From Prochlorothrix hollandica PCC 9006 = CALU 1027 (GTDB lineage Bacteria; Cyanobacteriota; Cyanobacteriia; Prochlorotrichales; Prochlorotrichaceae), in contig NZ_KB235933.1 in assembly GCF_000332315.1 (NCBI RefSeq), positions 1,303,041-1,367,040 on the forward strand: DNA of 64,000 bases, given 5' to 3'. Both the position numbers and the translations under genes were made by a program. The notes under the pieces were generated by a model, which was not told where the DNA came from, searched no databases, and saw only the letters and a list, made by a program, of their open reading frames with translations. Positions 51,150 to 51,859 of the stretch are shown in pieces (within the stretch, counting starts at the first letter, position 1; the number at the start of each line of letters is the position of its first letter).

Positions 51150-51156
51150 TCTTTTT

Positions 51157-51459
51157 ATGCCCAAAGAAAATCTCCCATTTGCTCGTCAATCTCGCTCCAG
51201 GGTCATGAAAACTTCTTCGGATCCTTGGCTAAATATTCCTGAGCCAACCTTATACGATTCCAGTGGAGCGCCGCTAAATATTCCCTCTGGAGCATTTGGC
51301 ACTGTTGCCCGCGCCGCAATAGGTAACTCTGAGTTACCTAAAATATTTGGGACTCCCATGCCGTCACAAAACGACCTACATCTTGCAGAGTTATTTGGTA
51401 CGCCAATACTGTCACAAAATGATCGACATCTTGCAGAGTTATTTGGGACTCCGTTCTAA
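51157..51459 (+). CDS. Possible 100-aa protein with 16-residue repeats, inside the CRISPR locus
   Basis: ATG 51157, 8 bp after the last repeat of array 1, opens a 100-codon frame. Its C-terminal part has two copies of GTP..SQND.HLAELF followed by a partial third (GTPF), and [20 protein letters not shown] nearer the front. The frame overlaps tail to tail with the 51456-51704 gene. I do not recognise it. Base composition is more AT-rich than the housekeeping genes. It may be foreign or non-coding. Confidence 0.3.
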
Positions 51460-51704
51460 ACTTGCGTCACCTCATGCCCCCGATACCACTCAGCATCAAA
51501 CTCCCCTAGTACCTTGTAACTGGCATAGACTTGTCCATCATAAATGAAGTCCTCGATCTCAAAGTTGCAGGGAATATTGACCCCAACGATGATACCGACA
51601 AGTTCGGGGTCGTTGTATTTGATCACCCTCGTTCCTACCGGCAGAACGATCGACATGTCAAAGCTAACTTCCTTGGCTAAGTCTTCGTAAGTTGGAATAG
51701 TCAT
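51456..51704 (-). CDS. Unrecognised 82-aa protein inside the CRISPR locus
   Basis: ATG 51704 follows a GTAGGATACAACGCC leader with an AGGAT ribosome-like site. The product is acidic and well mixed, with a likely beta-rich fold (VLPVGTRVIKYNDPELVGII, FEIEDFIYDGQVYASYKVLG) like small SH3-barrel proteins; it ends [11 protein letters not shown]. It lies on the same strand as the pre-crRNA transcript between arrays 1 and 2. No family is recognised. Anything beyond host gene or insertion cargo (for example an inhibitor of CRISPR) is speculation. Confidence 0.6.
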   Translation of the reverse strand: MTIPTYEDLAKEVSFDMSIVLPVGTRVIKYNDPELVGIIVGVNIPCNFEIEDFIYDGQVYASYKVLGEFDAEWYRGHEVTQV

Positions 51705-51735
51705 GGCGTTGTATCCTACAGATAGTGAAGAGGCT

Positions 51736-51760
51736 AGCCCCCAGGCGTAGGGGGCTTTTC
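51736..51760 (+). terminator. Hairpin with T run, plus strand
   Basis: AGCCCCC (51736-51742) and GGGGGCT (51750-51756) with a 7-base loop, followed by TTTCCTGTTT. It could terminate the plus-strand 51157 gene. It lies just upstream of the minus-strand 51704 start. Confidence 0.55.
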
Positions 51761-51859
51761 CTGTTTGTGGGTCGTGGTCTGGGTCAAATCCGCTTCAAGG
51801 CATTCCAGGGAGTAACGCCGCACTCCATCAGGGTTGTGAGCCGCACTTGAACCCCCTGG

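Follow-up and report, generated by a model that had tools for sequence, protein, structure and literature searches.

An interrupted type III-B array

The window, that is, the whole stretch of 64,000 nucleotides of Prochlorothrix hollandica DNA analysed here, contains, at 50078-52647, one type III-B CRISPR array that is made up of a trailer, 15 repeats, 710 bp of unique DNA, 11 repeats, and a leader. The 36-bp repeat (GTTTCCATTCAATTAGGATCCCCAGCGAGTGGGGAT) is present in 231 copies in the genome (5.65 Mb in 13 contigs, GC content 55-56 %), whose relatives in the searched collection are class-level only. To the left of the insert, array 1 (50078-51149, minus strand) comprises 15 identical repeats and 14 spacers, adjoins a conserved trailer (49993-50077), and is devoid of a leader of its own; to the right, array 2 (51860-52647, minus strand) comprises 11 identical repeats and 10 spacers, lacks its own trailer, and adjoins a leader (52648-52950, minus strand) of which ~190-300 bp are kept at the genome's other arrays. 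The trailer matches that of array 3 (53084-54019, 13 repeats), which has both a leader and a trailer and is arranged in tandem with array 2 at a distance of 436 bp: the array 1 trailer and the region left of array 3 (52999-53083) are 98 % identical over 121 nt, repeat included, and similar trailers are found at other arrays. A preliminary description of this DNA had regarded arrays 1 and 2, one trailer-only and the other leader-only, as one array split by a 710-bp insertion. This is borne out, as the interval (51150-51859) measures exactly 710 bp between intact repeats and as arrays 1 and 2, counted as one unit, have the leader on one side and the trailer on the other. Since the reverse-complemented repeat terminates with GAAAC and the conserved leaders are found to the right of the arrays, the crRNAs should, going by the usual form of such repeats, derive from the minus strand.

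The sole Cas1 of the genome adjoins array B (C1:183944-190598), which has the same repeat as the window arrays. A putative Cas2-like ORF (assigned by eye) lies beside Cas1, and an operon near array B encodes Cas10/Cmr2, Cmr3-like, Cmr6-like, and other RAMP proteins; the identical repeat and this Cmr operon beside array B assign the host locus to type III-B. Plasmids of Nostoc C052 and Anabaena cylindrica carry related loci, in which the order is array, cas2, cas1, csx18 and the repeat is near-identical. Four consecutive spacers are common to array 3 (window 53194-53466) and to the array on contig C12 (L057:5372-5644). This block was copied between arrays via the repeats; array recombination is active in this genome.

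Genes and borders of the insert

The insert harbours two convergent ORFs that overlap tail-to-tail, as had been described before, namely by 4 nt. One of them (51456..51704, minus strand, 82 codons) is co-directional with the pre-crRNA, and its codon use is gene-like and resembles that of the host, with only 0.2 % of shadow-frame ORFs scoring as high. It thus appears to be the one convincing small gene of the insert, in agreement with the earlier annotation. The other ORF (51157..51459, plus strand, 100 codons from the ATG at 51157) runs opposite to the crRNA direction in a frame that is open to the repeat border. The 16-residue repeats ascribed to it are indeed present as a 48-nt tandem duplication (51344-51439, plus strand; units 83 % identical, 5 of 9 codon differences synonymous), whereas its status as a gene is uncertain, given that its codon use is matched by 30 % of shadow frames. 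In dinucleotide shuffles, an ATG-initiated ORF of at least 82 codons arises in 22 % of cases and two such ORFs in 1.8 %. The plus-strand hairpin terminator of the preliminary description exists as a hairpin with a T-run (51736..51756), yet it is weak (plus-strand fold z = -1.7), and two terminator-like sites were observed in the region versus 0.7 expected. At the right border, a further minus-strand frame of 41 codons with an ambiguous coding signal remains open (51737..51859) and may be what is left of a truncated gene at its 3' end; searches for its source found nothing.

Relatives of either ORF were not found above noise in Pfam, NCBIfam, PHROGs, PADLOC, IMG/VR, GTDB contigs, or 145 related genomes. 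This upholds, for Pfam, NCBIfam, PHROGs, and PADLOC, the earlier impression that neither protein belongs to a known family; the same four collections gave no match to an anti-CRISPR or known defence protein, and the AlphaFold model of the 82-aa protein is of very low confidence (pLDDT 44). Comparison with phage and plasmid databases, as had been proposed before, was equally unproductive: the 82-aa protein had no relative in phage or plasmid records by tblastn, nor did the insert DNA in phage records by blastn. Taking all searched insert sequences, no plasmid or virus match was obtained in the phage, plasmid, or IMG/VR collections, where the source may be missing. The window arrays including the insert, when compared with plasmid records, matched mainly related cyanobacterial CRISPR arrays, and a search for RNA families returned nothing above the gathering scores.

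Both repeats flanking the insert are intact, and the insert is a single-copy sequence that contains neither leader nor trailer, the longest word in common with the leader or trailer flanks being 10 nt. Decayed repeat remnants were not detected beyond the level of shuffled sequences in either of the two large inserts of the genome (710 bp and 967 bp, see below). Terminal inverted repeats or a target-site duplication at the 710-bp insert reach 6-7 nt at most, which is within the range of shuffles, and neither a transposase in the insert nor further genomic copies were found, so that it has the hallmarks of neither an IS nor a MITE. Most of the insert has a GC content of 44-50 %, as compared to 45-58 % in spacers and 56 % in the chromosome.

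The last seven nucleotides of the insert (CCCCTGG, 51853-51859) recur, beyond the intervening repeat (51860-51895), as the first seven of the adjacent spacer on the leader side (51896-51902). Among 49,506 ordered comparisons of non-identical spacers, ten showed an overlap of at least 7 (seven or eight), and none of the adjacent spacer pairs (n = 216) had an overlap above 5. Allowing for ~8 border comparisons, this corresponds to p ~0.002 for an overlap that is short and was noticed post hoc. The overlap is a suggestive clue that the insert and the adjoining, later spacer may stem from neighbouring stretches of one source molecule. If real, it would tie the insert to DNA that was being sampled by the adaptation machinery. 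The joined frame across the insert end and the spacer spans 50 codons with an ambiguous coding signal. In IMG/VR, neither the repeat nor one exact word taken from a pair of overlapping spacers had a match.

Gene-sized intervals in other arrays

Two of the ~225 repeat intervals in all arrays of the genome are gene-sized, namely the 710-bp insert and an interval of 967 bp in the cas-adjacent array B (C1:183980-184946, L055:3981-4947), which separates the last repeat on the trailer side from its neighbour. Intervals of 110-118 bp were considered as long spacers and rejected, because each of them hides a slightly altered repeat. The 967-bp insert starts with a 78-codon open frame of strongly gene-like codon use (a score reached by 0 of 438 shadow frames) that runs straight into the repeat and is followed by a strong terminator-like hairpin (z = -4.9). 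Such a truncation of a gene exactly at the repeat would be expected from the capture of a fragment. The insert also holds a crRNA-directional 170-codon ORF, the region of which has four HIP1 sites; the insert looks partly chromosomal, which counts against the reading of foreign capture favoured below. Homologue searches with its ORFs found nothing, and a distant blastn comparison of array B with phages yielded matches at chance level only. Both inserts are bordered on either side by a complete copy of the same repeat, contain convergent ORFs, and lack element ends, but the 967-bp insert differs in its position (at the trailer end rather than mid-array), its truncated gene, its strong hairpin, and its host-like HIP1 sites.

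For comparison, stretches of up to 20 kb that surround relatives of the P. hollandica Cas1 in other cyanobacterial genomes, as well as plasmid loci, were scanned for arrays. This survey yielded 68 families of repeats, a small number of which are not CRISPR, with ~2,800 ordinary intervals and, counting those that do not span cas genes or many kilobases, gene-sized repeat-bounded intervals in ~6 further cyanobacterial loci (BL0902, G021, G184, G013, G078, and G062). In the III-B-type array on a plasmid of Leptolyngbya sp. BL0902 (NZ_CP046156.1), an interval of 504 bp (L101:4102-4605) that sets the terminal repeat apart from the other repeats contains an annotated 79-aa hypothetical gene. It resembles the insert of P. 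hollandica in that it is bounded by repeats, is associated with a related Cas1-Cas2-Csx18 module, and carries one small crRNA-directional gene, whereas its terminal repeat is degenerate (2 mismatches) and its protein is unrelated to those of the window insert. In G184 (locus L167, 13814-14899; 1,049 bp), the array is interrupted by an IS element that encodes a DDE transposase; this interval, too, is gene-sized, lies deep in the array, and has intact flanking repeats, but it possesses the transposase that the window insert lacks. The remaining examples comprise an interval of 586 bp in G021, several intervals at a degenerate trailer end in G013, one of 1,146 bp that carries a gene for a 2OG-Fe(II) oxygenase (L177:14590-15772) plus a 2-kb interval in G078, and one of 513 bp (L194:5819-6368) between intact repeats of a large array in G062. 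In G078, the Cas1 near the oxygenase-bearing interval has an in-frame stop. The longest ORF is crRNA-directional in most of the gene-sized intervals, the 82-codon ORF of G062 being opposite, in a sample too small for a test. Gene-sized intervals in cyanobacterial arrays are therefore uncommon, recurrent, and of mixed origin.

The only precedent found in the literature on genes within arrays is from Sulfolobus: locus F of S. solfataricus contains an 899-bp fragment between two repeats that partly matches a conjugative plasmid, its presumed source; CRISPR loci are described there as rarely hit by IS elements or MITEs (PMC4390879). The insert of P. hollandica has the same make-up, i. e., unique, gene-sized DNA between two complete repeats of one array. 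It differs in that locus F is archaeal and leaderless with a partly known source, whereas the P. hollandica array keeps its leader and no source was found. The earlier remark that cargo inside an array is unusual is hence correct when intervals are counted (2 of the ~225 in this genome). As a class, such cargo is not unusual, given that it recurs in the same genome, in other cyanobacteria, and in Sulfolobus. The 710-bp insert belongs to a known, rarely discussed kind, and what is less usual is that one genome has two such inserts and that the 710-bp one has 7 bp at its end in common with a spacer.

Origin of the 710-bp insert

The insert is probably a passive foreign (phage- or plasmid-like) fragment that the array captured, in the course of its extension or repair, at a repeat boundary or close to one. 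Several features count for capture: complete repeats at both borders combined with the lack of element ends, repeat remnant, leader, and trailer; the single copy in the genome; a GC content closer to that of spacers than to that of the chromosome; the 7-nt overlap with the leader-side spacer, which suggests a common source; and the truncated gene of the 967-bp insert together with the precedent of locus F (PMC4390879). That no source molecule was found in the searched collections counts against it, and as spacers make up about half of the array, any insertion into a spacer would also leave the flanking repeats intact.

Among the other readings, a junction of two formerly separate arrays by recombination between repeats, with the 710 bp representing the DNA between them or DNA from another array locus, seems unlikely. 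Recombination is active, as attested by the four spacers common to array 3 and the C12 array, and tandem arrays 436 bp apart do exist here, but true inter-array DNA holds a leader and a trailer, neither of which is present in the insert, and a crossover between repeats deletes DNA rather than placing unique DNA exactly between two of them. That a small mobile element, whole or as a remnant, inserted into a spacer, the second option of the preliminary description, is quite improbable: the IS transposase in the related array of G184 demonstrates that arrays can be targets, yet the window insert has no transposase, no second copy, and no terminal repeats or target duplication beyond shuffles, which leaves a misintegrated fragment as the best of the options proposed at the outset.

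The third of these options, an 82-codon gene that is kept as functional cargo, transcribed from the leader, and acting on or with the CRISPR system, must be considered very improbable. It could draw on the gene-like codon use, on the orientation along the crRNAs, and on the crRNA-directional longest ORF in most gene-sized intervals found. Beyond orientation, there is no positive evidence of expression with the crRNAs or of CRISPR control, and several points speak against it: no conservation was found, the cargo genes resemble neither each other nor defence families, cleavage at the repeats would cut the message out, and the ORF of G062 has the reverse orientation. An assembly error among near-identical repeats, conceivable in a draft of 13 contigs with 231 repeat copies, is very unlikely, since the insert occurs nowhere else in the genome, each of its ends needs a repeat as neighbour, and a gene-sized repeat-bounded interval is also present in the plasmid record of Leptolyngbya BL0902 that is described as complete.

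For the favoured capture of a fragment, we infer a foreign origin, a route of entry, and a passenger role of the ORFs as follows. Cas1-Cas2 is regarded as the ruler that fixes the length of spacers. In the simplest route, Cas1-Cas2 would make staggered cuts at both edges of the leader-proximal repeat. A long fragment that had escaped trimming would be joined there by its ends, in place of a spacer of 34-49 bp, and the repeat would be duplicated as the gaps are filled; alternatively, recombination or end-joining at an array break could give the same product. Ten normal spacer acquisitions on the leader side (array 2) would have followed. Leader read-through could transcribe the 82-codon ORF, but cleavage at the repeats would excise it from the precursor. 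The complete repeats and the 7-nt overlap are consistent with a giant spacer having arisen by such two-ended integration with repeat duplication, although 710 bp would need an exceptional reaction, because Cas1-Cas2 normally measures spacer length. With two gene-sized inserts in ~225 intervals, one of which shares an end with a spacer, this genome is a place to ask if the ruler fails or if there is another route of capture. It is a doubtful but conceivable extension that III-B arrays with this Cas1-Cas2 module occasionally take up gene-sized giant spacers and might thus be low-rate, leader-transcribable sites of gene capture. If plain fragment capture applies, the insert would be a minor structural curiosity that is of use in array annotation.

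Apart from the insert, the sequence beyond the trailer looks alike at two array loci (window 49830-49985 and L055:3680-3840), as if arrays had spread through the genome together with their flanks. Furthermore, there are overlaps of 17-30 nt between several spacers that belong to different arrays (window 53725-53764, 52492-52535, and 53577-53615; L056:2464; L055:7000), which indicates that some source regions were sampled more than once.
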